A stretch of DNA of 64,000 bases from Bolinopsis microptera. Taxonomy: Eukaryota > Ctenophora > Tentaculata > Lobata > Bolinopsidae. The notes under the pieces are model-generated. The model was not told where the DNA came from and ran no database searches. It was given only the letters and a program-made list of their open reading frames with translations. A program made the translations under genes and the position numbers. Positions 1 through 59,100 of the stretch are shown piece after piece; position 1 is the stretch's first letter, and each line of letters opens with the position of its first letter. Where the stretch lies: NCBI RefSeq assembly GCF_026151205.1, contig NC_087083.1, forward strand, positions 4,752,460 to 4,816,459. The letters are read 5' to 3'.

Positions 1-735
1 TCTCATAGAATTGTAGAATTACAGAAAATACCATTAGTACTTCCAACCAGTCGAAACGGATTTTGTAAGTTAAAACATCGGTTTCAAGCTCTCTCCGCAC
101 TTTCAACGCGGAGTAGAACTACAAGAGACTGTTACGACTCTCTTAATTCACTCGGATCCAACAACACGCTAGATATACGATGGATTGCAGCACACATCGG
201 ATTGTGGGGGAACGAAAAAGCAGATGAGCTGGCCAAGCTTGGCACCATCAGTGAATCCACTTTGAAGTGTCCAATTCCACAATCCTACATCAAGCGTCAA
301 ATCGACACCAAAGTCAACAGACTGAATCAGGAAACTTGGTCAACTGACGGTCCCAGACACACCAAACTGACACTCGGCCACAAGCATGCCAAAATCATCA
401 AAAACCTCAACACTACACTCAGCAATAACAGACAAGATTACAGAACTGCAGTTCACCTCATCACGGGTCACTGCGGCCTAAATAAACACCTCCACACCAT
501 TTGCAAATCAAACACCAGTGCTTGTCCTATGTGCGGGGACGGAGAGAGAACTGTCTCACACTTCCTTGGACAGTGTCCGGCTATTGCCCAAATTAGAGGT
601 CAATATTTCCAGGACTACTACCTCTCTGTCAATGACATATTCGACAACCAACACATCACCACAATTGTCAATTTCACAAACCGCACCAAACGCTTAATTG
701 TGCCGGAAGAACTGGATCAGACCGGGGTGACTTAA
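1..735 (+). CDS. Non-LTR retrotransposon ORF2, C-terminal part (RNase H and zinc knuckle)
   Basis: The frame is open from the first base of the window to a TAA at 733, so the 5' part of the gene lies outside. The residues include an RNase H C-terminal motif (GNEKADELAK), followed about 110 residues later by a CCHC knuckle of the form C-x2-C-x7-H-x4-C (CPMCGDGERTVSHFLGQC). An RNase H domain followed by such a knuckle is typical of the reverse transcriptase ORF of I-clade-like LINEs. The catalytic RT domain is not in the window. No internal stop is seen in the visible part, so this may be a fairly young copy. An A-rich tail follows at about 945-1003. Confidence 0.8.
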   Translation, partial: SHRIVELQKIPLVLPTSRNGFCKLKHRFQALSALSTRSRTTRDCYDSLNSLGSNNTLDIRWIAAHIGLWGNEKADELAKLGTISESTLKCPIPQSYIKRQIDTKVNRLNQETWSTDGPRHTKLTLGHKHAKIIKNLNTTLSNNRQDYRTAVHLITGHCGLNKHLHTICKSNTSACPMCGDGERTVSHFLGQCPAIAQIRGQYFQDYYLSVNDIFDNQHITTIVNFTNRTKRLIVPEELDQTGVT

Positions 736-1003
736 AGTATTATCTCATATGCTGTCTCGTCTCGTTTTACTTTTCCAAACCCAGCTGGCATTTAAGCGTA
801 TCATTTTGACTCATATAACATCCTACACCACCCTCCACCAATCACTCTGATCTCACCGGCAACCTTCCCCAAGGTTGCCACACCCCAGAGGTAGGCAGAG
901 CATCTCAATGCTATCCTCTCGTGGGCTATCATGGCCCAGCCTCTCTAAAAAATAAAAATAATAAAAAAATAAAATAAAATAAAAAAAAATAAATAAAAAA
1001 AAT
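736..1003 (+). mobile_element. 3' UTR and A-rich tail of the LINE
   Basis: About 210 bases of C-rich non-coding sequence follow the ORF. They end in an A-rich tract with interspersed T, which looks like a LINE 3' tail. The insertion boundary is near 1000. The 5' target duplication cannot be checked because the element starts outside the window. Confidence 0.65.
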
Positions 1004-1751
1004 CGGTTTTATTCTTTCTTTACCGTTTGTACGTGAGTCTGTCATACTGTGAAACTGTGGGTGACTTCATGGTCACATGGTCACATGCCTATCTAGGGTA
1101 TTTGCTTATCAGGTGGGTCATCACATGCCCTCCATGATGGTTAAATAACATTCCTTCGATACTTGCTATCAGTATCACAGTTCACCTGGCTGTACGTGAC
1201 ACAAACAGCTGCAGAATCGTAGATGGTACGCCATTTTATTGTAATTTAATTCAACTTCCTTATTGGAGCTTGATGATTTTATTGTACTGTTATACCTTAC
1301 AAATTGCATTTGTTAATGTATTATGATTTTACCCGAATGGTACATTAACCAATACCTTGACCTGCTCTGATATTTCCAGAATAGTGTTTCACAGGGTCTC
1401 AAGTTTCATTCCCTTATACCGTGATAAGAACATGCGACTAGCTGTGACGTATTGTCGTATTATCTGGTATTCTGTTTCTTATCTTTATCTCGTTAAAATG
1501 GGACTGCTTGGGCAGGCTTATTGCATTTAGTGTATCTGTTCTTCCGTCTTCACAGCTATTATGCGTTCGAAAATAAGTGGGGAGCTTTGTTGGCAAATTC
1601 AAAATTTCGTGCGATTCTTCGATTAAAACGTTTGCTACATTGTTTGACTTGGTTATCATTTTCAAATACGTACACTTCCTATATATCAAGTATTTTAACT
1701 ATTTTCTTCACACAGCTAACAAAACACCAACAGAAAAAGGTTCGCATTCCC
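1004..1751. other. AT-rich stretch without recognised gene
   Basis: I see no convincing coding exon here. The short overlapping open frames on both strands have no recognisable motif. It separates the LINE tail from the palindrome-ended repeat. Confidence 0.5.
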
Positions 1752-3518
1752 ATCACAATGCTGGCAAGCATAACCGTTGCCCTTATATTCACAACACTAT
1801 TTACCCCCTATACTATTATATCCCCTTTATTGTTTTCCAGGCATTAAGACTCATCGAAAGTAGTTCAGCAGGTATATTTAAGTTTAAAACATTCTAATTC
1901 AATGTTAAAGATGACAGGAATAAGAAATAGTTATGTGGAGGTTTTTAAGAAATTTGCGCAAAATACGCGCCAGCATGTTATACGAAATTAGGTAAAAAAC
2001 CCAAAATCGCCATATTCAGGTGCCTTAAAAACCATGTTAAAGTTGAGTTAGAAATCTGAAACTTTGCAGGGCGTCTAGACCTTGTCCAAATCGACTGTAA
2101 AAAAAATTTCATGTTTCAGGAGTATCGGGAAATGGGTTTTCTGGAACCCCTGTTTTACAACAGATTGTCGTGAAGCATATATAATATATATAGACGCTTT
2201 TGGCAGTCAATTGTAGCCTACATTTAAGTGTCAGTTGATTCAAAAGTATAAAAGATACAGTCATTTCGAACCACAGGTTTTAAAGATAATTGTTTATACT
2301 TTAGTTTACATTATATCGAAAAATAATTTATCGTCATCATCATCACTTGATGACGTCATCAATTTAAGTGTTTTTTAAACTTGATTTTTGACAAAATAAC
2401 AATTTTTTAAATCGATTTAACACCATTAAGGAGTAATTTTATTCAAGAACTGAGGACATTTTCATCTTAGATAATTGTTCAAGTATTCTGAAAATCTACC
2501 GGAAAAGTTTCCTACCTTACTCCTTCAGATATTCGCTATTGAAGTTAGTGCTTTTTTGAAGAATAATTTTATAAAAACACAAAAGTTGTGAATTAGTATT
2601 CTCTGGTGTTGGACCATCCCTTGGGTTGCGGAGCTCAATTTTGCTTCTTAAAGGTCTAAATTGTGTTATAGGCTAGTTTTAAAGTTGAAAATATAAAAGT
2701 TGCACACGTGGGGACACGCCCAAATTGATTTAAAATAGCTAAAATCACTGAAAATCGTTATTTTCAGGATTTTTATCAACTTTGGAGTCCCGTTGTGATT
2801 CAAGTTCTTTTTGAAATCTTCTGAAACTTTGCATGCTTATCAGACTATATATTAAATACCACTATGCAAAAATTTACGGTGATTCAATATTGTTTGCGCA
2901 CGCAACGTCCGCTCAAAGTTTGCACGTGCGAAAGGTGAGAATTTTGCTCATTCGTGATTTCGAATATATTCTGCTTTCCCACGATATTTAAATGGCATTA
3001 TATATGAATTAAATGCCAACTTGAATGAGTAAAAAGTGCCATATTCAGTCGGTTATCGACAGATATACCTACCTAAACACAAGGAAATGTTTTCAAAAGT
3101 AAAATTTCGAAATCGTTGAAATTACCTCCTTATTAATGAAGTTTTGACTGTGTAAAAATTATCCTGACATTATAATCAAAAAGAGATGATATTTGACCAA
3201 AACCCATAATCATGGGTAGAGTGAACCGCTGCCAGTGTCTCTCTTTTCCAAACAAAAGGAAATGATATTAATTTGAGGAACCGTCCGCAAACGCAAATTG
3301 ATACCGAGAAAGAAATCGGTCGCTCACTTTTCCCATTCATTCACGGCTTACGAATTGTAATAAAGCTTATTGAATGGGAAAAGCGAGCGACCGATTTCAT
3401 TCTCGGTATCAATTTGCATTTGCGGACGGTTCCTCAAATTAATATCATTTCCTTTTGTTTGGAAAAGAGAGACACTGGCAGCGGTTCACTCTACCCATGA
3501 TTATGGGTTTTGGTCAAA
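1752..3518 (+). repeat. Palindrome-ended repeat, copy 1 (modules A-B-P)
   Basis: This 1.77-kb unit matches 13746-15518 in the same orientation with only scattered differences. Module A runs from the ATCACAATGCTGGC end to a TA-rich junction near 2178, module B continues to 3191, and module P is the palindrome at 3192-3518. It carries no open frame longer than about 100 codons. No target duplication is visible at its ends. It belongs to a repeat family I cannot place; a foldback or non-autonomous DNA element is my best guess. Its right end is only about 85 bases upstream of the gene 1 start codon, so it may contribute promoter or 5' UTR sequence. Confidence 0.75.
3192..3518. repeat. 327-bp near-perfect palindrome (module P, copy 1)
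   Basis: The left end TTTGACCAAAACCCATAATC returns as its reverse complement at the right end. The arms are about 135 bp with a short asymmetric centre around 3340-3370. Further copies are at 12400-12732 and 15192-15518. As RNA or single-stranded DNA it would form a long hairpin. The 75-76 residue open frames inside it are a by-product of the palindrome. Confidence 0.85.
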
Positions 3519-3603
3519 TTTGATTAACAGTAATAGTGTAAAATAAAGGTAATACACTAGTCACACAACTACCTTCTCATAGTTAGAGTTAGTGATCAGA
3601 AAC

Positions 3604-6600
3604 ATGAAAGTAGCACTCCTGCTCAGTCTAGCGCTGACTGGTAGTTTTGTACAGTCGTACAATCTGTGGGATCAACTTGAGAACATATTTGATGACTATG
3701 ATATGATCAAAAATGGAACAGGTATTTGGTTTGAATCACATTTTGTAAGATTTGGATTGATCAGGAATAGTGTTTGGGTTTTTATTTCAATGATTCAGAA
3801 CATATCTATCATCAGTTTGAACTCTTTTCAAATTCAATTTGTGACCAATTCTCAGTAGTAACCACCAGTGACCACCAGTGACCACTAGTGACCACTAGTG
3901 ACCGCTAGTGACCACCAGTGACCACTACTCAGTAGTGACTATTGAACACTAGTGACCACTACTAACCAACAGTGAACTCAAGTAAAGTGACACCATATTT
4001 CATCGTATCTATTTAATTTCAGTTTGGGATGTAGAGAAACAAAAGTACCAGTGTGATTCAGGTTACTTCGGTAAAGATGGGTTTCCTCCTTGTACTATCT
4101 GTGACTCTGGAACTTTCTGCGATATGGTATATATTTAACAAATTTAAGATATATTTAACAAATTTAACATATATCTAACAAATTTAACATATATTTAACA
4201 TATTTAACGTAAAACACGTAACGTAACGTAAAACATCAGACCTCTCACCCTCTCAAACTGCTCCAGAAAATTACTGTCAATGATTACCCTAAAACGTATC
4301 CAAGGCAAGCTAGATCAGTACACCGGTCCTACACAAAGTGCTTACAAGAGAGGTAGAAGTTGTGGCGATATAATTTGGTCTCAACGTATGCTAACCTCAG
4401 TGGTACTTAGAAAGCATTGGAGCTACCACAGAATGAGTATAGACATGTCAAGTGCCTTTGACACCATCAGCAGAGAAACAGTACTCAATGTTCTTGAAGA
4501 TGCTGGCTGTACTAGTGATGAAATTAGGATGGTACGGCTCCTACTATCAAACACAGTGTTGAAAGTAAAAGTCAATAATACTGTATCAATTGAGTTCCAA
4601 AGCACAACTGGAGCATTTCAAGGAGATGCACTATCAGGTAATCTATTTACTGTTGTTGAAGCCGCTGCACTTATTCACCTCAGATCTGTACTCTCCTAAG
4701 TATCATCAACACCTTACCCAGTGAATCATCCAATCCCTAATCCTCCTATCTCAGAAGAATTCATGCCACTCGAAACAGGATACTCTGATGATATTGACTT
4801 TAATAACACTGAACTTGCTCCACTCAAAGAAATGCTTCCTATCGCTAAAGATATATTCCAGCAGTGGGACCTTCATATCAATTCTTCCAAGACTGAATTT
4901 GTCCATTTTTATTTAGCAGATCCTAAACCCACTGTTAAACGCAAGGTGATTGTTGGAAAAGTGTATAGAGGTGATGAAGAGTGGCGCTCTAACAAAACTT
5001 TAGGATCGTTGATGTGCACTGTTAAGGACATCAAGAATCGAATATTCCTTGGTAATGTTGCCTTTAGGAAATTTCAGAAAGTTTGGATGAAGAGCAAGAT
5101 TTCAGTCCAAAGGAAGATCAAAATCTACGAGGCACAAGTAGTCTCTATTCTACTCTACAACTGCAACTCCTGGGCTGCACCACTAGCTTCGTTGAATGAA
5201 CTTGATATTGCTCATCGCAAACACCTCCGAAGAATCCTCAACATCAGATGGCCTACTGGGGTTATTTCTAATGAGGCACTCTATGCTCGTTGTTATGTCA
5301 CTCCCTTGTCTGTGAGAGTCTCTAAGTTTCGATGGAGAATGTTAGGACATATCTTAAGAGGACAGGAAGACTCACCAGCATACACCTCTATGTTATTTGC
5401 TATAAATTCTGATATTTTTATGGAAGGGAGACGGGGTAGACCATGTTTAAACTTATTAGATGTTATTAGAAAAGACTTGACTAGTAGAAATCTTGATATT
5501 AGACTTAAGAATTTGACTGATTTCGAAGACCTTAGATTTTTAGCTTTAGATAGGGAGGAGTGGAAGAAGTTAGAAGATGGTTGATGTTTTTGTTTTCTTT
5601 TTTATGCGTTTTGATATCTATAAGGTGCCTAGGATGCTCTTTTAAAGAGATATTTCGTACTTTGAAAGATTTACTACTATTTAACGTAATATGTTTAACA
5701 TATTTAACATATATTTACGAGATTGTTACTTGCTTTTCTTAGAGTTTGATGCTTGAACAGATGGGATAAGTACGTTAATGCTCTGAAAAGCATTTTAAGA
5801 CCTTTTTCATCAAAGTTAAACGTAAACTAAAGTTTATGATTTTAATTAGCCAGCGTTATATCTCTACACTTATTGTCAGCTTATGACAAAAGATACTACA
5901 GTGAAGTTTTGACTTTTATTTATTTATTTTAAGGATAGATTATACTTGGACGTTGTTTTTAAACATCCCTAGTTTAGAACTTTTAATTAATAATAATAAC
6001 ATGTTATTTTCAGCGTGGGTGTACGGAATGTACACCGTGTCCAGCGGGAGAATATGCCGACAAGAAGGGAAACTATCAATGTTTCAAATGTCAAACTGGA
6101 TATTACTCTGATAAAGAGGGTAAAATCATGAATTCTGATTTGTATAGATTGTAAAAAGCATAATACTCTTTCACAGGTTTGCAAAGATAAGCGAATTTGG
6201 AATTCACTGCCCTTACAGCTCTGTGCCATTTTAAGTCAAGTTTGATATTTCTCTTCAGGTGAAGCCCATTGTTCAAAGTGTCCCGGAGGTACCTTTTCCA
6301 GAAGGACAGGTTCTAAAAGTTGTGACGAGTGTCCCGCCGGAGAATTCAGGTTTTATTCTTCGATCCTTTAAGCGGGATTAATTTTATTCATGTTGCATTA
6401 ACTTTAAGTGCCATTTCCCCCTATGTTTTATAATCGGATTTTCAGCTATGATTATGATAACACAAACTTTCAGCGACTACGCGGAGGCGTCTTCTGGCTG
6501 TGGGAAATGCCCGACTGGGACCTACAATCCTAAACCTGGTCAAGCTGAGGAGACGTCGTGTCTGCTCTGTCCTGCAGGACAGTACCAGTAAGTCTGATTT

Positions 6601-9600
6601 ATGGAAATTATAACACTAACTCTTAAAATGTGCCCTGCTGAATCTATCGAAATTCCCTCTAAGAACTTAAATCGGGTCATTGAAATCTGTTATCAGGGGA
6701 TCAATCACCAGGTCCTAAACTCTTCAAATAATAAAAACTATGCAGGGACTCAGTCGGTGAAACGGACTGTAACGCATGTCCTGAGGGGCGTTACGGCGAC
6801 GAAGAGGGGCTCGGAGAATGTCACAACTGTACTGCTGGACACTTCCAGGTTAATTGTTGGGCATCTTACTTGAAATCTGGTTTGGTATCACGCTTGTTTT
6901 GCTCTGATCCGGTTTAGTGTTTGGCATATCATCCCGGCAGATTGCTCTGACTGCTGGTCTAATTAGTCCGGATATGAAAAGGCGATCCCTTATCAGTGCT
7001 AGTGATTAGATTCACCAAAAAAAATGGATTTCACAAAAAAAGTGTAGATGATTCAAAAAAAAATCGTAAATTTTCCTGAAAGATGATAATTGGTCAAGAC
7101 TAACTTGCCTAAGAGGAAACAGAATGTGTTCAGCTAATTAACATGTCGCCTACTGGCTACTTGTTGTTGTAAGCACTTCTCCTCAGGATGAGACAGGACA
7201 AACGGTATGTCAGGAATGCCCGATTGGTCAGTACACTGATTCAGAAGGATCTAAAGCCTGTTCGTCATGTGACGAGGGTCACTTTGCTGACACTACCGGT
7301 GAGAGACAGCTAGTTTACATGATAATTAGCTAGATGAGATTTGTATTTATTTGTTAGGGAGCGTGATGATATTAGGGAGCGATAAAGGATGATGGTAATA
7401 CATTTTAGTGATGCTTCGTGATATTAAAACTATCTGAGTATCTAGAAGGAAACATAATGTACCTGATCAGGTATAAAAGCTACTGATCAGTGATCAGTAG
7501 CTTTTATAAGATGGAGATCATCCACATCATCATCACAGATCCTCATCACAGATCATCATCACAGATCATCATCACAGATCATCATCACAGATCATCACCA
7601 CATATCATCATCACAGATCATCATCACAGATCATTACCACAGATCATCATCACAGATCATCAACACAGATCATCAACGTCACCAGTCACTACTGAGCTTA
7701 AATTAGAAATGACATTTGATAGCAACTCTTATAAGCTACTCAGCTACATTCTAGCTACTCAGCTACATAAAATGGTAATTAGATCCTTATGCAGGGACCA
7801 CCCGTATTTACATTCAGTATACGAGATCATGGGGACAGGTTCTATAGAAAAAAAGAGATCCTAATCTTATTTTACATCCAGGAACCATTGAGTGCAAATC
7901 ATGTCCGGCTGGAGAGCATCAGAAGGACACTGGTGCAAGCTCTTGTGATGCCTGTGAAATCGGTACGAATGATTCTCTTTATTTTCTCAAGAACTTTTTT
8001 TCGTATCGCTCTTTGCTCAGCTCAAATTAATATAACTCTGGAAGAAGTTTATTTCTCAGAATCAATTAAATTATGATGGGACTTCACAGGGGAATATCAA
8101 GACAAGACGGGTCAAGCCAGGTGTTACCAATGCAATCAAGGAACTTACCAGAACGAAACAGGACAAGCTAGTTGTGTGGAGTGTGCCCAGGGGACAGCTC
8201 AATCTGATGCCGGACAAGCTAAATGCACTGACTGTGGCCCTGGACAGTTTGGTGATCAATCTGGGCAGGTACAAATTACAATCACGGCACTTTTTTGTTT
8301 TGTTTTTTATCGACATCTCGCGGTTTCTTGCGGTTGATCAGACCACTTACGCTCTAGAAAAAGTCACTTTTTACGGTAATTGAAGAATGTGCTTACCATT
8401 TAACAACCATTTATTTGGAGCCTGTCTGGATTGGTCAGTGACTGTTCTTTAACAAGTATACAGTTTAGTTTTACAATCAACCATTGAAAACTATTAAAGT
8501 AGTTTTAAAGTAACTACTTTAAGATTATTAGCAATTACCTAGTATCTAATAGTTTCCAGCTCAAGAAGTTCTCCACTATTTTGGATTACATTAAACCAAA
8601 AACCAATTTACAGTCTCTCCTCTCAGCTGTACTGTGGAAACTGTGAAGCAGGTACCTTCTCTGACGGAACCCAAAACACAGGATGTACCAACTGTGCTGC
8701 CGGAACTGCTAACAACAATACTGCAGCTAGCTCGTGTTCTCTGTGTGAACCAGGTTTGTTTTATCAGCCACTCTTGTGCTACCAACAATACTGCAGCTAG
8801 CTCTTGTTCTTTGTGTGAACCAGGTTTGTTTTATCAGCCACTCTTGTGCTAACAACAATACTGCAGCCAGCTCTTGTTCTTTGTGTGAACCAGGTTTGTT
8901 TTATCAGCCACTCTTGTGCTACCAACAATACTGCAGCCAGCTCTTGTTCTTTGTGTGAACCAGGTTTGTTTTATCAGCCACTCTTGTGCTACCAATAATA
9001 CTGCAGCCAGCTCTTGTTCTTTGTGTGAACCAGGTTTGTTTTATCAGCCACTCTTGTGCTACCAACAATACTGCAGCCAGCTCGTGTTCTCTGTGTGAAC
9101 CAGGTTTGTTTTATCAGCCACTCTTGTGCTACCAACAATACTGCAGCCAGCTCGTGTTCTCTGTGTGAACCAGGTTTGTTTTATCAGCCACTCTTGTGCT
9201 ACCAACAATACTGCAGCCAGCTCTTGTTCTCTGTGTGAACCAGGTTTGTTTTATCAGCCACTCTTGTGCTACCAACAATACTGCAGCCAGCTCTTGTTCT
9301 TTGTGTGAACCAGGTTTGTTTTATCAGCCACTCTTGTGCTACCAACAATACTGCAGCCAGCTCTTGTTCTTTGTGTGAACCAGGTTTGTTTTATCAGCCA
9401 CTCTTGTGCTACCAACAATACTGCAGCCAGCTCTTGTTCTTTGTGTGAACCAGGTTTGTTTTATCAGCCACTCTTGTGCTAACAACAATACTACAGCCAG
9501 CTCTTGTTCTCTGTGTGAACCAGGTTTGTTTTATCAGCCACTCTTGTGCTACCAACAATACTGCAGCCAGCTCTTGTTCTTTGTGTGAACCAGGTTTGTT

Positions 9601-12600
9601 TTATCAGCCACTCTTGTGCTACCAACAATACTGCAGCCAGCTCTTGTTCTTTGTGTGAACCAGGTTTGTTTTATCAGCCACTCTTGTGCTACCAATAATA
9701 CTGCAGCCAGATCTTGTTCTTTGTGTGAACCAGGTTTGTTTTCATCAGCCACTCTTGTGCTACCAACAATACTGCAGCCAGCTCTTGTTCTTTGTGTGAA
9801 CCAGGTTTGTTTTATCAGCCACTCTTGTGCTACCAATAATACTGCAGCCAGATCTTGTTCTTTGTGTGAACCAGGTTTGTTTTCATCAGCCACTCTTGTG
9901 CTACCAACAATACTGCAGCCAGCTCTTGTTCTTTGTGTGAACCAGGTTTGTTTTATCAGCCACTCTTGTGCTACCAATAATACTGCAGCCAGATCTTGTT
10001 CTTTGTGTGAACCAGGTTTGTTTTATCAGCCACTCTTGTGCTACCAATAATACTGCAGCCAGCTCTTGTTCTTTGTGTGAACCAGGTTTGTTTTATCAGC
10101 CACTCTTGTGCTACCAACAATACTGCAGCCAGCTCGTGTTCTCTGTGTGAACCAGGTTTGTTTTCATCAGCCACTCTTGCTGTTGGGCGTTATCGCTGGT
10201 TATGTAATTTCCAAAGGTCATTTAACCGTAGACGTAGGAAAACATGCAAAATATGCAAGATATGCAAGCTATATGCAAAATATGCAAAATATGGACATCA
10301 GCCAAGAAAGATATTAGTATCAGTGGGGCCTCTGTTCCTACCTGATAACACTTTCTTATCAGGTGCCCACGCTAGTGATACCGGGTCCAAAGTTTGTGAT
10401 TTATGCTACGCTGGCGAGTACGCAGCTGAGAGTGGAACTGTCAACTGTAGTCCCTGTGACACTGGCCACTTCTCGAATTCTTCAGGTAATTTATCGGTAA
10501 AATTTGCAAAAGCACTGTAGAAAAATATGCGAAAATATGCAATAACATTATAGAAAAATATGCGAAAATATGCAATAACATTGTATGTCTATTCTAGCAG
10601 TACAGGAGTAAGATTTCATGATTCACTTGATTGTGATTGTGAAACTCCTGAAGATAGGGAAGATAGGGAAGATTAAAAGTTAGATTAAAACTCCGTATCA
10701 AACTATACAATTATTCCGAAACTAAGCCCAAAGTGTGTGGTACTCTTTAGCTACAACCCCCTCTTTTTCAGGCAGTTTATCCTGTTACAGCTGCACTCCG
10801 GGACACTATGCTGACACCGTCAACTCTACTTCATGCGCGTCTTGTGAGTCAGGATACGTTGCCCAGTACCCCGCTGCTGATATTTGTGATGCCTGTAATG
10901 CTGGTAAGTGCTTGTGATTCCTGTAATAGTGGTAGTGCTTGTGATGCCTGTGATAGTGGTAGTACTTGTGATGCCTGTAATGGTGGTAAGTGCTTGTGAT
11001 CCTAATTGAGTTTATTGCGAAAAGCGGTAGGAACCTGTTGTATCCAATGCCATTATGCCTGCATTTATAGTACAGCCATAAACCAAACCTGATAGTAAGC
11101 TTGCCTTGCGTCTTGTCACTATGACTAAGTTAGATTAATAACAACAATATGTTGTTCAAGATAAACAACATATTTCCTTTCTAATTTATCCATTCATAAT
11201 ACTTCAGGAACCTTCAGCAACGACAAAGCTACTAACTGTGTAGCTTGTCCTAGAGGAAAGTATAACGATCTGCCCCACCAAGCAGTTTGTAAGGATTGTG
11301 CGGCTGGCTCTTTTGCTAATATGGTACGTTAAAGTTGCGATGTAGGGGTTTCAGGGAGAAACTTTTTAAACTTTTTACTGTGTGGCTTTCTTAATTTCTT
11401 CGCTAAATTTTCGATTGCGTTTGTTAGTATAAGGTAACAAACGTTATTCGTACACTTCTATAGATCTATAGTGAATCACAAAATATAAACTTGTGTTTCA
11501 AAAAATAAGGTATCAGCGAGTAAGGTCTTCAATACATTAGTGTAATAACATAACAAATATTCAGACTGGACTGAAAATCTGTTACCCGTGCTCGGCGGGG
11601 ACCTACCAGGACGAGGAGAAAGCGAAGGAGTGTAAAGCCTGTAGCCCAGGAAGTTCCCAAGCAGATGAGGGGAAAAAGTCTTGTGATAGCTGTGATTTTG
11701 GTTTGTAATTGAGTAATTGGTTTGTAATTTGTTTATACCGGTTCAAAACTTTTGCGTGATCAGCAACTCGTGGTTTCTTTAATTGTAATTCAGTTAGTTT
11801 ACCAACCACAAAATTAAAAAACACATTTCCATGGCAATAAAAATTGTTGAGGTCAAACTTTCAACGAAGATCCTAGATCACTCAGAACTTGGAATATTAA
11901 CAGCTGAAAACACCACAGGACACGCCCAGAGCAAGTCAGCACAAAAGGAATGTGATGCTTGTGAAGTGGGACACTTCGCTAACGTAACTAGGTTAGAGGT
12001 TTGTTACGCTTGTGATGCAGGAAGCTTTGGAGCTTCACCTGGACTGTCAGGTAATTTAATCTGTCGTTTAACTGAAATGTTAATTTAAGTAAAAAGTATA
12101 TTCAAACTTTGAATAGTATCATTTGCATGATTTTTGTTGAAACAGTAACAAAATGAAATTGAGAAAATATTGAATTTAGCAGATATTTTATGCATTACGT
12201 TTATCTTATGCAGAGTGTACGCTGTGCGAAAAAGGAACTTACAATCCTGACGAAGCTCAAGCTTCTTGCTTAGACTGTGATGCTGGTACACAAGGAGGTA
12301 AATTAAAATTAAATTAAATAAATTGAAATAATTTAAAAAAAGCAAATTATGAATAAAATTTGGCTGTTTCACTGAGTATATTATTATGTATATAAATAAT
12401 TTGACCAAAACCCATAATCATGGGTAGAGTGAACCGCTGCCAGTGTCTCTGATCTTTTCCAAACAAAAGGAAATGATATTAATTTGAGGAACCGTCCGCA
12501 AATGCAAATTGATACCGAGAATGAAATCGGTCGCTCGCTTTTCCCATTCAATAAGCTTTATTACAATTCGTAAGCCGTGAATGAATGGGAAAAGCGAGCG

Positions 12601-15600
12601 ACCGATTTCATTATCGGTATCAATTTGCATTTGCGGACGGTTCCTCAAATTAATATCATTTCCTTTTGTTTGGAAAAGATCAGAGACACTGGCAGCGGTT
12701 CACTCTACCCATGATTATGGGTTTTGGTCAAATATCATCTCTTTTTGATTATAATGTCAGGATAATTTACAAAGTCGAAACTTCATTAATAAGGAGGTAA
12801 TTTCAACGATTTCGAAATTTTACCTTTGAAAACGTTTCCTTGTGTTTAGGTAGGTATATCTGTCGATAACAGACTGAATATGGCACTTTTTATTCATTCA
12901 AGTTGGCATTTAATTCATATATAATGCCATTTAAATATCGTGGGAAAGCAGAATATATTCGATATCACGAATGAGCAAAATTCTCACCTTTCGCACGTAC
13001 AAACTTTGAGCGGACGTTGCGTGCGCATACAATATTGAATCGCCGTAAAATTTTGCATAGTGGTATTTAATATATAGTTTAATAAGCATGCAAAGTTTCA
13101 GAAGATTTCAACAAGAACTTGAATCACAACGGGACTCCAAAGTTGATAAAAATCGTGAAAATAACAATTTTCAGTGATATAAGCTATTTTAAATCAATTT
13201 GGGCGTGTCCCCACGTGTGCAACTTTTCGATTTTTAACTTTAAAACTAGTCTATAACACAATTTAGACCTTTAGGAAGCAAAATTGAGCTCCACAACCCA
13301 AGGGATGGTCCAACACCAGAGAATACTAATTCACAACTTTTGTGTTTTTATAAAATTATTCTTCAAAAAAGCACTAACTTCAATAGCGAATATCTTTATG
13401 AAGGAGTAAGGTAGGAAACTTTTCCGGTAGATTTTCAGAATGCTTGAACAATTATCTAAGATGAAAATGTCCTCAGATTTTGAATAAAATTACTTTTTAA
13501 TGGTGTAATATCGATTTGAAAAGTTGTTACTTTGTCAAAAATCAAGTTTTAAAAACACTTAAATTGATGACGTCATCAAGTGATGATGATGACGATAAAT
13601 TATTTTTCAATATAGTGTAAACTAAAGTATAAACAATTATCTTTAAAACCTGTGGTTCGAAATGACTGTATCTTTTATACTTTTGAATCTACGGACACTT
13701 AAATGTAGGCTACAATTTACTGCAAAAGCGTCTATACATATATACATCACAATGCTGGCAAGCATAACCGTTGCCCTTATATTCACAACACTATGTACCC
13801 CCTATACTATTATATCCCCTTTATTGTTTTCCAGGCATTAAGACTCATCGAAAGTAGTTCAGCAGGTATATTTAAGTTCAAAACATTCTAATTCAATGTT
13901 AAAGATGACAGGAATAAGAAATAGTTATGTGGAGGTTTTTAGGAAATTTTCGCAAAATACGCGCCAGCATGTTATACGAAATTAGGTAAAAAACCCAAAA
14001 TCGCCATATTCAGGTGCCTTAAAAACCATGTTAGTTAGAGTTAGAGATCTGAAACTTTGCAGAGCGTCTAGACCTTGTCCAAATCGACTGTAAAAAAAAT
14101 TTCATGTTGCAGGAGTATCGGGAAGTGGGTTTTCTGGAACCCCTGTTTTACAACAGATTGTCGTGAAGCTATATATATATATATATATATGTATAGACGC
14201 TTTTGCAGTAAATTGTAGCCTACATTTAAGTGTCCGTAGATTCAAAAGTATAAAAGATACAGTCATTTCGAACCACAGGTTTTAAAGATAATTGTTTTTA
14301 CTTTAGTTTACATTATATCGAAAAATAATTTATCGTCATCATCATCACTTGATGACGTCATCAATTTAAGTGTTTTTAAAACTTGATTTTTGACAAAATA
14401 ACAACTTTTCAAATCGATTTTAAAGCATTAAGGAGTATTTTTATTCAAAATCTGAGGACATTTTCACCTTAGATAATTGTTCAAGCATTCTGAAAATCTA
14501 CCGGAAAGTTTTCCTACCTTGCTCCTTCATAAAGATATTCGCTATTGAAGTTTGTGCTTTTTTGAAGAATAATTTTATAAAAACACAAAAGTTGTGAATT
14601 AGTATTCTCTGGTGTTGGGCCATCCCTTGGGTTGTGGAGCTCAATTTTGCTTCCTAAAGGTCTAAATTGTGTTATAGGCTAGTTTTAAAGTTGAAAATCG
14701 AAAAGTTGCACACGTGGGGACACGCCCAAATTCATTTAAAATAGCTAAAATCACTAAAAATTGTTATTTTCACGATTTTTACCAACTTTGGAGTCCCGTT
14801 GTGATCCAAGTTCTTTTTGAAATCTTCTGAAACTTTTCATGCTTATCAAACTATATATTAAATAACACTATGCAAAAATTTATGGTGATTCAATATTTTA
14901 TGCGCACGCAACGTCCGCTCAAAGTTTGCACGTGCGAAAGGTGAGAATTTTGCTCATTCGTGATTTCGAATATATTCTGCTTTCCCACGATATTAAAATG
15001 GCATTATATATGAATTTAATGCCAACTTGAATGAGTAAAAAGTGCTATATTCAGTCTGTTATTGACAGATATGCCTACCTAAACACAAGGAAACGTTTTC
15101 AAAGGTAAAATTTCGAAATCGTTGAAATTACCTCCTTATTAAGTTTCGACTGTGTAAATTATCCTGACATTATAATCAAAAAGAGATGATATTTGACCAA
15201 AACCCATAATCATGGGTAGAGTGAACCGCTGCCAGTGTCTCTCTTTTCCAAACAAAAGAAAATGATATTAATTTGAGGAACCGTCCGCAAATGCAAATTG
15301 ATACCGAGAATGAAATCGGTCGCTCGCTTTTCCCATTCATTCACGGCTTACGTATTGTAATAAAGCTTATTGAATGGGAAAAGCGAGCGACCGATTTCAT
15401 TCTCGGTATCAATTTGCATTTGCGGACGGTTCCTCAAATTAATATCATTTTCTTTTGTTTGGAAAAGAGAGACACTGGCAGCGGTTCACTCTACCCATGA
15501 TTATGGGTTTTGGTCAAATATTATATACTATACTTCACGACAATCTGTTGTAAAACAGGGGTTCCAGAAAACCCACTTCCCGATACTCCTGCAACATGAA

Positions 15601-18600
15601 ATTTTTTTTACAGTCGATTTGGACAAGGTCTAGACGCTCTGCAAAGTTTCAGATCTCTAACTCAATTTTAACATGGTTTTTAAGGCACCTGAATATGGCG
15701 ATTTTGGGTTTTTTACCTAATTTCGTATAACATGCTGGCGCGTATTTTGCGCAAATTTCTTAAAAACCTCCACATAACTATTTCTTATTCCTGTCATCTT
15801 TAACATTGAATTAGAATGTTTTGAACTTAAATATACCTGCTGAACTACTTTCGATGAGTCTTAATGCCTGGAAAACAATAAAGGGGATATAATAGTATAG
15901 GGGGTACATAGTGAACTGTGAATATAAGGGCAACGGTTATGCTTGCCAGCATTGTGATTACGTTTTAAATAGCGCTAATCTTCATTGAATTTATTTCCAA
16001 GTTTTTCACAACCCTGATATTTTACGAGCCAAGAAATTTATTTCTATTGATTTTTGGAGCTGAAGATATTTTAGTTTTTACCGCATTGGCTTTTCACCGC
16101 AATTACGCCTACTCCTATTTAATATATTTTCAGAAAACAAAGGAATGCTAAAATGTGACAACTGTACGCCGGGATATTTCCAAGACCTACCAAGTAAATC
16201 AGTGTTTTAACAAAATATTTTACTTCATAATTTTTTGATGTGCAATTATGGGGAAGAGTTTATTGAACAAGAATGAGCACTTGTTAACGAAGCTGTTACT
16301 GCTCTAGCCACTCAATTTGTAAATTAATCTATTCATTGGTTAATTTAATGATATATAACAAATCTTATCTTTACAGAACAAACTGAGTGTAAGCCGTGTA
16401 GTAAGGGACATTTCAACAATGAAGATAAGGCGACCGAGTGTCAATCATGTAAAGCAGGCACATACGACAGTAAGTACAGTGGTCACAGTGGTCACAGTGG
16501 TCACAGTGGTCACAGTGGTCACAGTGGTCACAGTGGTCACAGTGGTCACAGTGGTCACAGTGGTCACAGAGAAACAAATTTTAAGTTCTATAAAAAATAA
16601 ATGATACCATCATTATTATAAGAATTATCAAACATAGTATTATAACATTTTGAAATTGCAGACGGAGTTGCTGCAACGGAATGTTTAGAATGCCCAACTG
16701 GTCATTTCAGCAACGTGGAAGGTAAACAGCACAATTAATTTTAAAACAAATCATGCTTTAGGACATAACTAATTAGTAATTAACGACTACTTTATCACTA
16801 GACACGAATAAGATGAATTCCACTTCTATCGTTGTACAAGTCACAAGACAGCTACTTTTAGTCATTTAACCGGCACCATATCTCACCACTAATTCCCACC
16901 TACTACAGCGGCCGCTACCTGCAAGTCATGCAGTGCGGGTTTGTACCAAAATGAAACTGGTCAGCAAACATGCAAAGACTGTCCTGTGGGACACTTTTCT
17001 GATAGCAACGGAGCCGCAGAATGTCAATCCTGTGCTGAAGGTAACTTTCCTCTGATAAATTTCAAAAAGTCAGAACAACCATAATTATTTGCTTTTCCTG
17101 TGATTCAATTGTAACAAAGTTACAGTTTTGATGAGGAATCAAACTGTTATAATACTCATCTCTATGTCCAACAACATAACCCCTCCCTCCCGTATCACAT
17201 GTACCCCCCTCCTCAGGTCAGTTCCAGCCAAGTGAAGGTATGACAGAGTGTTATAACTGTGCTAAGGGGAGGTACATCAACGAAACAGGCTCTACAGCCT
17301 GCAAGAAGTGCCCTACTGGCACCCATGGTATGATTACAAAATGTTTATTTTTGTGAAATTAACACAATTATCTGATCAAAATAATGCTTCTCTTAGTGCA
17401 GATGATAAAGTTACAGATTTTATCACACAACTTACAAGTTACATATCAAAGCTGCCTTTATGTTTTACGCTAGATCTGGATATCTATTAATCTATTACTT
17501 ATTCAGTTATCATTAATAAATTGATAAATTGATTGACTTATTCATTGATTGACTTATTAATTTATTGACTTATTAATTTATTGACTTATTAATCTCACCT
17601 AGCTCCCAAATCTGGAATGGCTAACTGTGATGATTGTCCCCCGGGAACGTTCGACGATGATCAAACTGGGTCAATAAACTGTGCTAGCTGTGCTAAGGGA
17701 CACTACAATGACAAGCCAAGTAGGTGTTGTTGTTGTGTAGTTTGGGATAGAAGGGTAGAATGTTCATTGTTCATCCATCAGTAAGCCATGTTATGCCTAT
17801 GGTCTTATATGCTTGAAATTATTGAAACCATTAACCATCTCAATAGGATTATTCCCACTGTGCGATTTTAGTATGATCAAGGGGATCCGAATTATAAATA
17901 CCTTGATTAAGATAATTCATCACGTGTCAACTCAGAGATTTATTGTCTCGCTTTCCCAGGACAAACAGAATGCAAGGAATGCTTAGCAGGAACATTTGCT
18001 AATGCCACAGGACAGGCCAACTGTTACGAATGTGAGCTGGGAACTGCTACTGACAAAACCGGCCAAGAGGATTGTCCAGCTTGTGACCCAGGTATTTAGT
18101 GATTGATCACGTGCCATTGATTGAGTATGTATTGGAATTCGAAATAGAGCCATAGCTATGCCAGAAAATATTACGTAAGCCTAAAATTTACAGCATAATG
18201 TAAATTTAAGATTCATCTAATTGCAGGTTATTTCGCCGGTACTAAAGCGTCCACAGTTTGTTCTGAGTGTGACACTGGCAGCTACAGGTTTGGTAACTAG
18301 TTCTATTTATTTTTCTCCTAATAATATTTTCTCCTAATGTAAACAGAATCTAGAGCTTATTATTTGTTTGCGACTGTATCGTCATACATCAACATGATGC
18401 TTTAAAGGGTAATATTGCGAAGGGATACAATCCCCATTTACAATTAATCACCCACATATCTTCACTGTTTGATTAAATTGTTCTTACAACATTTAGTTAA
18501 AGTTTCAACTGCCAAACTTTAAAACTAACAATTAAATGATTAATAATAATTAATTGATTAAATTATTCAGTGCTGAGAGTGGTAGTCCTACCTGCACTCC

Positions 18601-21600
18601 CTGCTCCCCGGGTTCCTCCAACGATAAGAAAGCTCAGAAGGAGTGTCAGGAGTGTGCGGGTGGTGCCCATTCTAGTGATCCTGGCGCTGTGAACTGTGAC
18701 CTGTGCCTTGCTGGAACTTTCTCTGTTAGTGTATTTTAGTTACTTATTTATTTAGTTATTTATTTATTTAGTCATTACTTAGTTAGAGTTGTGACGTGCA
18801 GATTGCTGGGAGTTTCGCTGTTTACCTAATAATAATTTTAATTTGTAAAGTTCGTAGATTCCTCTACAGGGTCATCGAATAGTTCGACCGCCCTTGTTTT
18901 ACAGTAAACTACATTGTAGATGTTCTGAAGGAGTATCATAAGATTCTTGATCTTTTGGCACAGGCACCCCTCCTCATTTAACCCTCAATCAAGTTTCCTA
19001 TCATTCGGCTGAGTCGACCGAGGAGATCGCATAGATCCAATGAATCCTTAGCTACTCCCTAGACTGGGTGATACTGGGATTCGAACCCTTAACCTTCTGT
19101 ACAGAAGGCGGAAGCTCTAACCACTTGGCCACCCACCTATTAGTTATTTTGTTAATTAATTATGAGCTATTTGAATAGTTAAATATGATTTACTGTAATA
19201 CTCTGTTTGTTATAATATACATGATTTAGTTAATAAGCTAAGTAGTCGTTTGTTCGTCAGAGACTTGATGTTTAGAGATTATTAATAAGTTAACAGTGAT
19301 AGTAGTGTTGAGCAAAATACTCTTGCTCAACTTCTTAAATTCCTCTGCTTATCATTGATAACGTATCTCCCAATGCAGGCTGAAGGAGCTCAGGATTGCA
19401 CAAACTGTCCTAAAGGAAAAGTCAACACGAAATCCGGAGAATCACAGTGCTACAACTGTTCCCATGGTAAATAACACAATACAAATGGTCGTTAATTCTG
19501 AATCCTACTTTCAAAGAAATAATTTTGTATTTGAAGAGGCGTTTCCTGGAAGAGGTGTTCCTCAATCATTTGAGTGCACTAGAGTAAGTCAAACAACTCT
19601 TGTCAGTAGTCAGGCCAGTTTAAGGCGTGGCATGTTTAACAAATGATGGCTCAGACAATTTCTATGGTAAGACCATTAGTTTAACACTTTTCAATCCATC
19701 GTAAGTCAGTCAGACTACCCTGACTGAATAGTAGTTAAGTTATTTCCATATGGAACGTTGCTCGCAGCCAGGAATTTATTATTAAACCGATTGATGGTGA
19801 TCATGTAGACATGAACACGACGTACCTCGAGGCGACCCGTTTGAGACTCGACTAGTTTAGGCTTTTTACGTCCATCCACAAGGGAGTATCACCTATAGCA
19901 GATTAAAATAATGTTAATAACTATATTTATAAATATATAATATATTAACATTATTTTAATCTGCTAGGTGATACTCCCTTGTGGAATCGTGGATGGCCGT
20001 AAAAGATACAAAAAGATACGTCGTTTTAATGTCTATACAAGATCACTATCAATCTTAACACTAGTTTATCTTCGGCGACTGTGGCTGAGTACAATCATCA
20101 CTAACTTAACCATTTCGTATAAAACGTCAGCTAGCGCTAATCATGTTTATCAGACTGACTTAAGTCAGCGTATATGATTTACTAATTGGTAGACCAACAT
20201 CTTTAAGTTTAATATCTAAGTGCCTGTCAAGGTGAACCCCCCGATATTATCCTCACTGCAAGTGTTAGTTTAACAGAGAATCTGGGAGAGGCGCTGGGAG
20301 AGGCGCTGTTCAGACTAACCTTGTGTCTGAATAAAATTTAATTATCATTCAAGGGCGACTGTTGAAGTAGTTACAGTTATATAACGTCCCATATCGAATT
20401 AGACAATATAGAATCCCAGTATGCATACTGAGACTGCAGACTATTTGGTTAAACTTTAAAGATGTCAACAAGCTCTCCATTTTAACATTTTTTTGTTTTT
20501 AATGACATGTATGTTAGGCCTTAGGCCTAGGCAATCACAAAACTCTCAAGTTTTCGCGATAGAATATGACTTATTTTCCTGGAGCAACATTATAGCTGAT
20601 AAACATGAAACTACTAGCACAAACTAGGCAAACGTCGAATTGTCATTGTGAGGTTTGCTATGACCGGTTGTAGAATTATGCCGATAAATTTAATCGTTTG
20701 CATAAATCAGTAAGCATAAACACTAGACAGCCATTTAATAGACCACGGTAACGTCGTTGTTCGTTAAAAATTACCTAAGATTTATTGATACGGATTGTTC
20801 AATTAATAGCCGGTTTGGTAGCTATAAATTCATCAAATTGTGAAAATACAGGTTACTTCTAAGTTATGACTACTAATTCACAACACCTCCAGGATTATTT
20901 AACGACCAAGAAGGACAGACCGCGTGTGAAGACTGTCCGTCCGGACTCGACACCGAGTACCCTGGAGCCACATCCGAGGACCTCTGTACCTTCCATTACT
21001 GTCTGGCCGGATACTCGGGGGAACCCTGGAACTGTGAACCTTGCCAACCAGGGAGTTACTCTGCTAAGGGTAACATGACCACGTGTGATAGGTGTGATTA
21101 CGGGGAGTACCAGGCTCAGGCACGGAGTACTGAGTGTGATAGTTGCACGTGAGTAAAGTGTTCAGTATTTACAGTATCTACAGTTGGATCTATTTTATCT
21201 GACCGGATATTGCGTGAACGTCCGTTCAAATAATGTCCGATAAGGTAGATACAATTTTATATAATGTAATGGTCAGTAAGTAGGGATCACAAGTGTTATA
21301 AGTTACGGGGTTATATTGTGTAGCATGTTTATTTGGTAGACTCCCATACCGAAGCTGCATGGCACACCTCGCTATTAGTCCTAAGAGTTACCTTTTAGGG
21401 CTAGGAGGGGTGATGTTTTCAACTGTGATTGGAAAATATCATGGATAAAGGAGTATATAATTTGGGAAACACGTTCGTGAGATGTTTAATCAATATTCAC
21501 TTTCTGTTGCTTATTTCTCTGCTGATAAAATTATTGCAGGCGCTTCTTCGACCGTCTCCATACCGATAAAGTTCCTTGATTAGCTTAATCCTTCGGTTAT

Positions 21601-56117: not shown

Positions 56118-59100
56118 CTTTGGACATAGAAGAAGGAAACCTGGACCATGGCGGCGGTGGAAACGCGGAAACAGTACTTTTTACAAACCCACTGACAGCG
56201 AACTCAAAGAACCCTGATCTTGAAGCAGCGGAGGATTTGAACGAGACAACGGTTATCAGTAACGGAGTACACGGAGGTAACGGAGTACACGCAGATAACG
56301 GGCCACAGTCTGACGTTGGGATCGTTCTTACGGTAAGTTATCAGCTAGTAGTTTGTTTGGAGTATATATGTACCATAATTCATACAACCGTACAAAATTT
56401 TTGGAAGTTCTGTCCTCTTGGTTGGGTTGAACCATTAACGTAGTATGGGATAGTTAGGAATCACACAATTCTATAATATATAATATGCAACAGCAATGAG
56501 TGATTGAGAGTTCTATTAGCTAATTGAAAAGTTTGAGGGCTGTAGAGTTAGTGATCTAGAGAGTTAGAGAGTTAGAGAGTTCCTAGTTGGTGAGTTAGAG
56601 ATCTAGAGAGTTAGGGAGTTAAGCAGTTTGATAGTGAAGCAGTTAGAGAGTTAAGCAGTTAGAGGGTTAAGCAGTTAGAGAATTAAGCAGTTAGAGAGTT
56701 AAACAGTTAGAGAGTTAATCAGTTAGAGAGTTAAGCAGTTAGCGAGTTAAGCAGTTGGAGAGTTAAGCAGTTAGAGAGTTAAGCAGTTAGAGAGTTAAGC
56801 AGTTCAGAGGGTTAGAGCACTCACTTCACACCACGTGGAAAGTAACATTACGTTTATTAGAAACTGCCCGGTCGATGCTAATTCATTAATTTCATAACAC
56901 TATTAAATGTATGTACAGTCTGGAAGTAAATATGTACCACACTATTAACTATTAAGTCTATATCCTTATATCTGACCTAACCTAATAGATTACTATACCT
57001 AAATTCAACTCTACCGTCCGTGGTTCAGTACAGCACAGCACTTATTTCATTCATAACATTTTCTTGCTCTCTTATCACTACGCTATCTTGCTCTTTTGAA
57101 AAATAAGTGATTTGTGCATCATCACCGTGTTACTTGACCATGCCCGGCCGGGATATACTGATACAAGATGTGCAAGTTCTAGAAGACTGAAGAAGTGAGA
57201 AAACTTTTTTTGTTGTTCGTATCTGGTCTCTTCAAGACTTCAGTTCGCCTCTACTCGTGATCGTGCTATAGTATACTTTCTTTCTTACGAACGAATGATT
57301 TATTAATGGTTCCCTTTGTGCTGATAAGTGCCCTAAATTATAAGTTCCTATAACTCCCTTTCTTCCTAGGATGAGATATTATCAGAAGCCCTGTTTTTCT
57401 ATATTAAAGGCCTCTTGCTAGAGGATGAGATATTATCAGAAGCCCTGTTTTTCTATATTAAAGGCTTCTGACTAGAGGATGAGATATTATCAGAAACCCT
57501 GTTTTCTGTATTAAAGGCCTCTTGCTAGAGGATGAATTATTATCAGAAACCCTGTTTTCTATACTAAAGGTCTCTTGCTAGAGGATGAATTATTATCAGA
57601 AACCCTGTTTTCTATACTAAAGGTCTATTGCTAGAGGATGAATTATTATCAGAAACCCTGATTTCTATTTAAAAGGCCTCTTATACTAGAGGATGAGATA
57701 TTATCAGAAACCCTGATTTCTATATTAAAGGTCTATTGCTAGAGGATGAGATATTATCAGAAACCCTGTTTTCTGTATTAAAGGCCTCTTACTAGAGGAT
57801 GAATTATTATCAGAAACCCTTATTTCTATTTAAAAGGCCTCTTATACTAGAGGATGAGATATTATCAGAAACCCTGATTTCTATATTAAAGGACTCTGAC
57901 TAGATGATGAGATATTATCAGAAACCCTGTTTTCTATATTAAAGGCCTTTTGCTAGAGGATGAGATATTATCAGAAACCCTGATTTCTATTTAAAAGGCC
58001 TCTTATACTAGAGGATGAGATATTATCGGAAATCCTTTTTTCTATTTAAAAGGCCTCTTACTAGAGGATGAGATATTATCAGAAACCCTGATTTCTATAT
58101 TAAAGGCCTCTTGCTAGAGGATGAGATATTATCAGAAACCCTGATTTCTATTTAAAAGGCCTCTTATACTAGAGGATGAGATATTATCGGAAATCTTTTT
58201 TTCTATTTAAAAGGCCTCTTACTAGAGGATGAGATATTATCAGAAACCCTGATTTCTATTTAAAAGGCCTCTTATACTAGAGGATGAGATATTATAAGAA
58301 ACCCTGATTTCTATATTAAAGGCTTCTGACTAGAGGATGAGATATTATCAGAAACCCTGATTTCTATTTAAAAGGCCTCTTATACTAGAGGATGAGATAT
58401 TATCAGAAACCCTGATTTCTATATTAAAGGCCTCTTACTAGAGGATGAATTATTATCAGAAACCCTGATTTCTATTTAAAAGGCCTCTTATACTAGAGGA
58501 TGAGATATTATCAGAAACCCTGATTTCTATTTAAAAGGCCTCTTACTAGAGGATGAGATATTATCAGAAACCCTGATTTCTATTTAAAAGGCCTCTTATA
58601 CTAGAGGATGAGATATTATCGGAAATCTTTTTTTCTATTTAAAAGGCCTCTTACTAGAGGATTAGATATTATCAGAAACCCTGATTTCTATTTAAAAGGC
58701 CTCTTATACTAGAGGATGAGATATTATCAGAAATCCTTTTTTCTATTCAAAAGGCCTCTGACTAGAGGATGAGATATTATCAGAAACCCTGTTTTCTATT
58801 TAAAAGGCCAATTCTGAAAGCCTGTTTTCTATTTAAAAGGTCAAGATTCTGAAAGTTAGAATAGAACCAAAACTTAATTCATGTGCCTTTTCTCAAACAT
58901 GAGTTCCATTAAAAAATCCTGGATTTTATTTTTGGCCGATTAAGCCGCTAAGCTAGTTGAAATTCTTAGCTAGCTAGTGGCGCAGGACAGGTAAGCGGCT
59001 GAAACCTCTAGAGCTTACCAATCGCTAACTCCTTCATTTATTAAATATATTATTTTATTTGAGATCTGAATAAAGTTACTGTAATATTCCAAATTATATT

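Follow-up and report, generated by a model that had tools for sequence, protein, structure and literature searches.

A 70-bp minisatellite repeats a 5′ splice site 21 times in a gene of the ctenophore Bolinopsis microptera

We analysed a 64,000-nucleotide stretch of the Bolinopsis microptera genome (the window; assembly GCF_026151205.1, contig NC_087083.1, positions 4,752,460 to 4,816,459 of the forward strand), in which a 70-bp minisatellite lies across the end of a coding exon and carries the 5′ splice site (donor) of that exon in every unit. The host gene encodes a cysteine-rich repeat protein, and its model is sound. Its 25 exons were read from their borders and the cysteine spacing; after joining, one frame was free of stop codons, while the other two held 13 and 106. 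The first 473 residues matched the Ephrin_rec_like repeats (PF07699) with an E value of 9.2e-67 and 221 bits, above the curated cut-off of 23.1, and the single solved-structure match of the first 400 residues was a mastigoneme-like protein (8tx1, E 1.2e-38). A 187-residue query over the host exons gave at least 117 matches in the genome, with 150 of 426 candidates scored; an identity of 94-96% was found at the window locus only, and the other scored matches reached at most 51%. A search of Rfam at gathering scores returned no match in the window.

We then investigated the anatomy of the array, which is known here from the sequence of one assembly. Tandem Repeats Finder (TRF) reported a period of 70 with 21.0 copies and 97% matches at 8707-10179, and each unit consists of the final 47 nt of the exon followed by the first 23 nt of the intron, so that the tandem repeat spans the donor. 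As an earlier sequence-only reading had proposed, the 5′ splice site is repeated 21 times; the donor CAG/GTTTGT was identical over positions -3 to +6 in 21/21 units, starting at 8754, 8824 and so on to 10156, with a donor-to-donor spacing of 70 in 18 of the 20 intervals and 71 in the remaining two. Within the assembly, the 70-bp unit was found at the window locus only, with 21 matches, and the 21-copy array is not a product of chance. Nine distinct unit types were present among 20 array units. All of the substitutions (20/20) fell within the exon-derived part, at 7 columns, and the sole change in the intron-derived part was a one-base insertion in some copies, although the difference between variable columns in the two parts (0/23 versus 7/47) was not significant (P 0.09). 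Furthermore, 4 of 47 sites differ between the exon copy and the unit consensus, suggesting a spread of derived bases across the array.

Table 1. Coordinates (window positions) of the host gene, the reported array and the other arrays near its exon ends
Feature	Position	Strand	Remarks
Host gene, 25 modelled exons	6014-21148	+	Gene ends lie outside the model
Coding exon (8 in the present model, 10 in the sequence-only reading)	8627-8753	+	Last 47 nt in the repeat unit; 25-exon model without stop; Ephrin_rec_like E 9.2e-67
70-bp minisatellite, 21 copies	8707-10179	+	47 nt of exon end and 23 nt of intron start
First donor GTTTGT, presumably used	8754-8759	+	Sole donor of the 21 in frame with 10363
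20 more identical donors, presumably unused	8824-10161 (8824, 8894, 8964 ... 10086, 10156)	+	20/20 lead to an in-frame stop
Following coding exon	10363-10485	+	Acceptor 8.25 bits, scored with itself left out of the matrix
Tandem array	10499-10582	+	Begins 13 nt past first intron base 10486
Second donor-spanning array	10884-11000	+	4 copies of 27-28 bp; exon end 10903; donors GTAAGT, GTAGTG, GTAGTA, GTAAGT
Tandem array	12299-12341	+	Begins at donor 12298
9-bp array	16476-16569	+	Begins 6 nt past first intron base 16470
Tandem array	18735-18776	+	Begins 10 nt past first intron base 18725

The splice sites were scored with a matrix built from the host gene's own exons. The array donor is strong: its 9.23 bits were not surpassed by 22 of the 25 real donors (the first donor of the array being counted among them), and of the 576 other intronic GT sites that the host gene has outside the array, just 1 scored as high. 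Each unit had also been said to hold a candidate acceptor, TTTTATCAG; this sequence was indeed present in 18 of the 21 copies, while the other three carry TTTTCATCAG, which is one base longer. This acceptor-like site is ordinary: it scores 5.53 bits, or 6.23 where it is one base longer, and 24 of the host gene's 561 other intronic AG sites score at least 5.53. The region showed no strong fold, since 100/100 shuffles of the exon and first units were at least as stable, and hidden donors are thus not indicated.

Reading frames distinguished the donors from one another. Only the donor at 8754, which had been expected as the genuine site, retained the frame when joined to the exon at 10363, leaving the whole 25-exon frame without a stop, whereas each of the 20 later donors led to a stop codon in frame, 44 nt beyond the junction and within unit 1. 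The unit length of 70 is not a multiple of three. When the nearest donor was used, the resulting 56-nt cassettes were closed in 20/20 cases. The earlier arithmetic for a cassette of 126 nt, running from the acceptor of one unit to the donor of the next, was correct, as these cassettes were open in 17/17 cases and the printed one ends in SLCEP plus a split glycine; each of them, however, contains an identical internal donor that has to be skipped. Such a product would require the spliceosome to ignore this donor inside the cassette. The proposal that copy number alters splicing or the protein is accordingly weak for the protein at this locus, and the sequence-only interpretation as a whole is partly supported.

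We next consider six paralogous multi-exon loci, hand-picked from the matches of the 187-residue query. Their exons were predicted by a simple exon finder trained on the window exons, of which it recovers 25/25. Donor-spanning arrays were found in four of them (L032, L033, L036 and L037; loci outside the window are given as L numbers) and not in L034 and L035. L032 carries 19 copies of a 65-bp unit and L033, which has 10 modelled exons, carries two copies of the same unit, so that these two paralogues on C12 have 19 versus 2 donors at the same exon, in introns of 1,382 versus 269 nt. Judging from their sequences, L032 and L033 are recent copies of each other, as 1208 of 1254 exon bases were identical (nine exon pairs of equal length and more than 85% identity) and 259 nt of intron were 95% identical. 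The exons flanking the array were kept on both sides in the pair (229/234 and 151/156 bases identical). In L037, a 43-bp array contains 43.9 copies according to TRF, 22 of them with an intact motif, and joining the first donor of this array (L037/L038) to the exon at 5263 retained both the frame and the family match. L036 (G000:C9:334500-339500) carries a 36-bp array with five donors at 1445-1624, and 4/4 later donors preserve the frame (CDKCPAGYFQ-VM); there, donor choice or copy number could yield steps of 12 residues. This paralogue thus fits the idea of copy number altering the protein better than the window array does. The same locus also contains, at 2399-3115, an acceptor-spanning array with a unit judged by eye at about 64 bp (TRF period 129); the repeat includes the acceptor CCCTCCCCCTCAG and the beginning of the exon that follows.

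Similar arrays were found at unrelated loci, and arrays of the kind seen in the window recur in this minisatellite-rich genome. Among 13 pattern loci fetched from word searches, a homeobox gene (L012) has its homeodomain interrupted by an intron, between ..AQIQVQ and VWFQNRR.., in which a 35-bp unit is repeated about 20 times; joining across the array gave a homeodomain over 57/57 profile positions (E 3e-23). In L007, a WD40-like match extends up to the exon end, below curated cut-offs (E 2.7e-5 and 0.0011); this is probably a WD40 exon end repeated eight times. The open frame terminates at the first donor in L006, L011, L013 and L016, with no Pfam match for L006, L011 and L016. The last of these (G000:C1:36000-39500) holds 36 copies of a 32-bp unit with CAG/GTACTT on the strand opposite the search word, adjoining a 70-codon open frame of which 60 residues were tested against Pfam. 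By eye, the array of L005 begins at a likely donor and that of L009 looks like an acceptor array; at the other five pattern loci (L008, L010, L014, L015 and L017), no exon was seen at the array. A blind sample of 126 kb (14 segments of 9 kb at positions picked blind) contained 93 arrays over 13,797 bases, corresponding to about 11% tandem repeats. One of these arrays (L024), with a 43-bp unit and 47 donors, begins at an exon end supported by an open reading frame and apparently spans the donor; it gave no Pfam match. One donor-spanning array in 126 kb is not enough for an estimate of the genome total; its Poisson limits run from 53 to 11,700.

We also asked whether donors are preferred sites for such arrays, with mixed results. 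A genome-wide excess of donors in arrays was first suggested by three tandem copies of GGTAAGT, which gave 5,057 matches versus 46 for the reversed word, and was abandoned when other words shrank the contrast: a further four words built from the same letters gave 1,228, 2,092, 1,069 and 648 matches, so that the reversed word proved a flattering control and the excess fell from more than a hundredfold to 2.4-fold over the next of six equal-composition words. Among the matches listed (the first 100 per search), a few long arrays supply most. The nine-letter word CAGGTAAGT gave 446 tandem matches versus 0 for its control, with nine distinct arrays in the first 100 of the 446, and as a single site it was twice as common as its control (2,463 versus 1,212); the tandem excess had a P value of 0.015 with a denominator, 1,900, that is an estimate. 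The acceptor word TTTTCAG gave 741 matches versus 192 for its control. In the blind sample, no donor-like excess of array units over their own reversed sequences was found, either for arrays of at least three copies (13 of 23 above and 8 below, P 0.45) or for all 82 arrays of period at least 9 (43 above and 34 below, P 0.63).

The placement tests cover one gene family, and their form was changed after results had been seen. When whole arrays were slid along the window gene (10 arrays typed by hand, with the TRF row 20282-20308 left out), 6 of 10 lay near a donor versus 1.6 expected (P 0.001), or 5 of 9 versus 0.86 without the reported array (P 0.0005). Pooling six genes, the same procedure placed 10 of 27 arrays near a donor versus 6.8 expected (P 0.065) and gave 5 donor-spanning arrays versus 6.0. 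Since long arrays inflate this null, single units with at least 30% intronic sequence were slid instead over the collapsed genes of the six family members, after array-derived exons of L036 and L037 had been removed by hand; L033, as a near copy of L032, and the first L035 exon, a proline run, were left out of the count. As a result, 10 of 27 arrays spanned a donor or started within 15 nt of one versus 3.8 expected (P 0.0015), and 9 of 26 did so versus 3.6 without the reported array (P 0.004). Donor-spanning arrays alone numbered 5 of 27 versus 2.4 (P 0.07), or 4 of 26 versus 2.3 without the reported array (P 0.17), and the corresponding values were 6 versus 3.8 for acceptor-adjacent arrays (P 0.16) and 1 versus 2.4 for acceptor-spanning ones. 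With tandem repeats making up about 11% of the sample, arrays may simply fall on donors frequently in this genome.

Taken together, the array is probably a donor-spanning intronic minisatellite of which only the 5′-most donor is used, its copies being tolerated and having no coding role. As read from the sequence, a tandem duplication over the exon/intron border copied the exon end together with the intron start, and the copies then expanded to 21 units that have been partly homogenised; everything beyond the first donor would be intron. The spliceosome would take the 5′-most of the 21 identical donors and join it to 10363, removing 1,609 nt. We infer this use of the first donor because only 8754 keeps the frame and because of a precedent in human F7 (coagulation factor VII): the review PMC6627357 describes intron 7 of that gene as containing highly similar 37-bp repeats of variable number, the first of which holds the real 5′ splice site, with only the most upstream donor used. 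Being tolerated, the array would be free to drift in copy number, and it would mainly lengthen the intron and create some risk of mis-splicing into frames that bear a stop. Reading beyond the first donor in 12 donor-spanning arrays, eight met a stop before any later donor, two reached one later donor out of frame and two kept the frame; in three of the 12, the nominal unit length (27, 36 and 27 bp) is divisible by three.

Several points weigh against this reading. Use of the first donor is deduced rather than read from RNA, and since all 21 donors are identical, donor strength does not explain the choice. The acceptor-like site lies within the real range, above 5 of the 25 real acceptors, and if the first intron is required to measure 60 nt or more, 190 acceptor/donor cassettes can be formed, of which 19 were open (16 of 126 nt, two of 267 and one of 408), although all 19 bypass at least one identical donor. 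Later donors retain the frame in L036 and L013, and in L036 the exon finder had ended the exon at the last donor, and this exon end was moved to the first donor by hand. Furthermore, the phases of L006, L007, L011, L013 and L024 were picked from the open or family-supported frame, and L032 and L033 represent one event, so that the 12 array rows are not 12 independent tests.

Among the alternatives, later donors could be used at some rate and the resulting transcripts with a premature stop degraded, so that copy number would tune the amount of protein. The identity and strength of all 21 donors, the convergence of 20/20 alternative donors on a stop at the same codon and the lack of a strong fold in the region would suit such tuning, but the F7 repeats, according to that review, use the first donor only, and the paralogues with 19 and 2 donors both retain their exons; we therefore regard it as improbable. 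Lengthening of the protein by pairs of units spliced in as 126-nt exons, the cassette of the sequence-only reading, appears very unlikely. Its 17/17 open cassettes and its acceptor-like site of 5.53 bits are set against an identical internal donor to be skipped each time, a 56-nt version closed in 20/20 cases, 24 of 561 other intronic AGs that score equally well, and first-unit residues (ATLVLPTILQ...) that, by eye, break the cysteine spacing.

It is just as hard to credit that the array persists because it has a function, for example as a series of binding sites for U1 small nuclear RNA that would reinforce the exon or inhibit premature polyadenylation. The donor unchanged in 21/21 units, the confinement of 20/20 substitutions to the exon-derived part and the excess of arrays at donors in the six family genes (10/27 versus 3.8 expected, P 0.0015) are consistent with this, yet the contrast in variable columns (0/23 versus 7/47, P 0.09) and that in donor-spanning arrays (5/27 versus 2.4, P 0.07; 4/26 without the reported array, P 0.17) were not significant, units of the random sample did not resemble donors more than their own reversed sequences did (13 versus 8, P 0.45), and paralogue L033 manages with two copies. 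Least credible of all is an assembly artefact in which the copy number is not real, given nine unit types among 20, clean flanks and like arrays at unrelated loci. A broader reading, that minisatellites multiplying 5′ splice sites are a common standing feature of the genes of this lineage, preferentially born at donors and free in copy number, is possible although doubtful. If it were true, the genome would contain numerous natural constructs in which identical donors, from 2 to about 47 per array, follow one another, and some of the arrays, as in L036, would preserve the frame and be able to give length isoforms.

In introns gained by duplication of an AGGT segment, the intron has the length of the repeat unit and the copied AG serves as acceptor. 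The tandemly copied segment of the window array likewise holds AG/GT, as in intron gain of this type (PMC4974935). The window intron was nevertheless rejected as a case of this kind, since its 1,609 nt end at 10362, outside the array, and differ in length from the unit; in 4/4 units scored, the unit's own CCAG reached only -1.85 to -2.75 bits when taken as an acceptor. PMC2812944 reports, for human duplicated genes, internal tandem repeats at exon-intron borders that change gene structure, with 27 intron modifications; such repeats can make new introns, whereas the window copies appear confined to one existing intron. The array resembles F7 intron 7, as presented in the review PMC6627357, in spanning a donor and repeating a near-identical one in each unit, but differs from this shorter unit of one human gene in its size (70 bp by 21), in the second array within the host gene and in the further arrays in unrelated genes. 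For copy-number variation of the F7 type, the data offer only a difference between paralogues at a different locus (19 versus 2). Donor-spanning minisatellites are thus already known (F7; PMC2812944), and what is new is a further member with several examples in one genome; searches of the ctenophore literature, in the titles and abstracts shown, returned no paper on minisatellites at splice sites.

The arrays provide natural constructs with identical donors in several genes, including a recent pair of paralogues with 19 versus 2 and a homeobox gene with about 20. Work on how the spliceosome chooses among identical donors generally relies on engineered constructs. These genes bear on whether, in a lineage perhaps distant from mammals, the donor furthest upstream prevails.

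Other repeats were observed in the window. A 53-bp tandem array of about 27 copies at 57368-58809 is the second largest. The 3.8-kb intron 14 of the host gene contains near-identical open frames of 91-93 residues at 12418-12699 (-) and 15225-15500 (+), and an open frame much like this pair recurs at 3225-3500 (+); by eye, the pair at 12418-15500 together with 3225-3500 resembles a foldback transposon. Upstream of the modelled exons, reverse-transcriptase-like open frames at 4232-5584 probably belong to a retroelement, judged by eye from the list of open reading frames.

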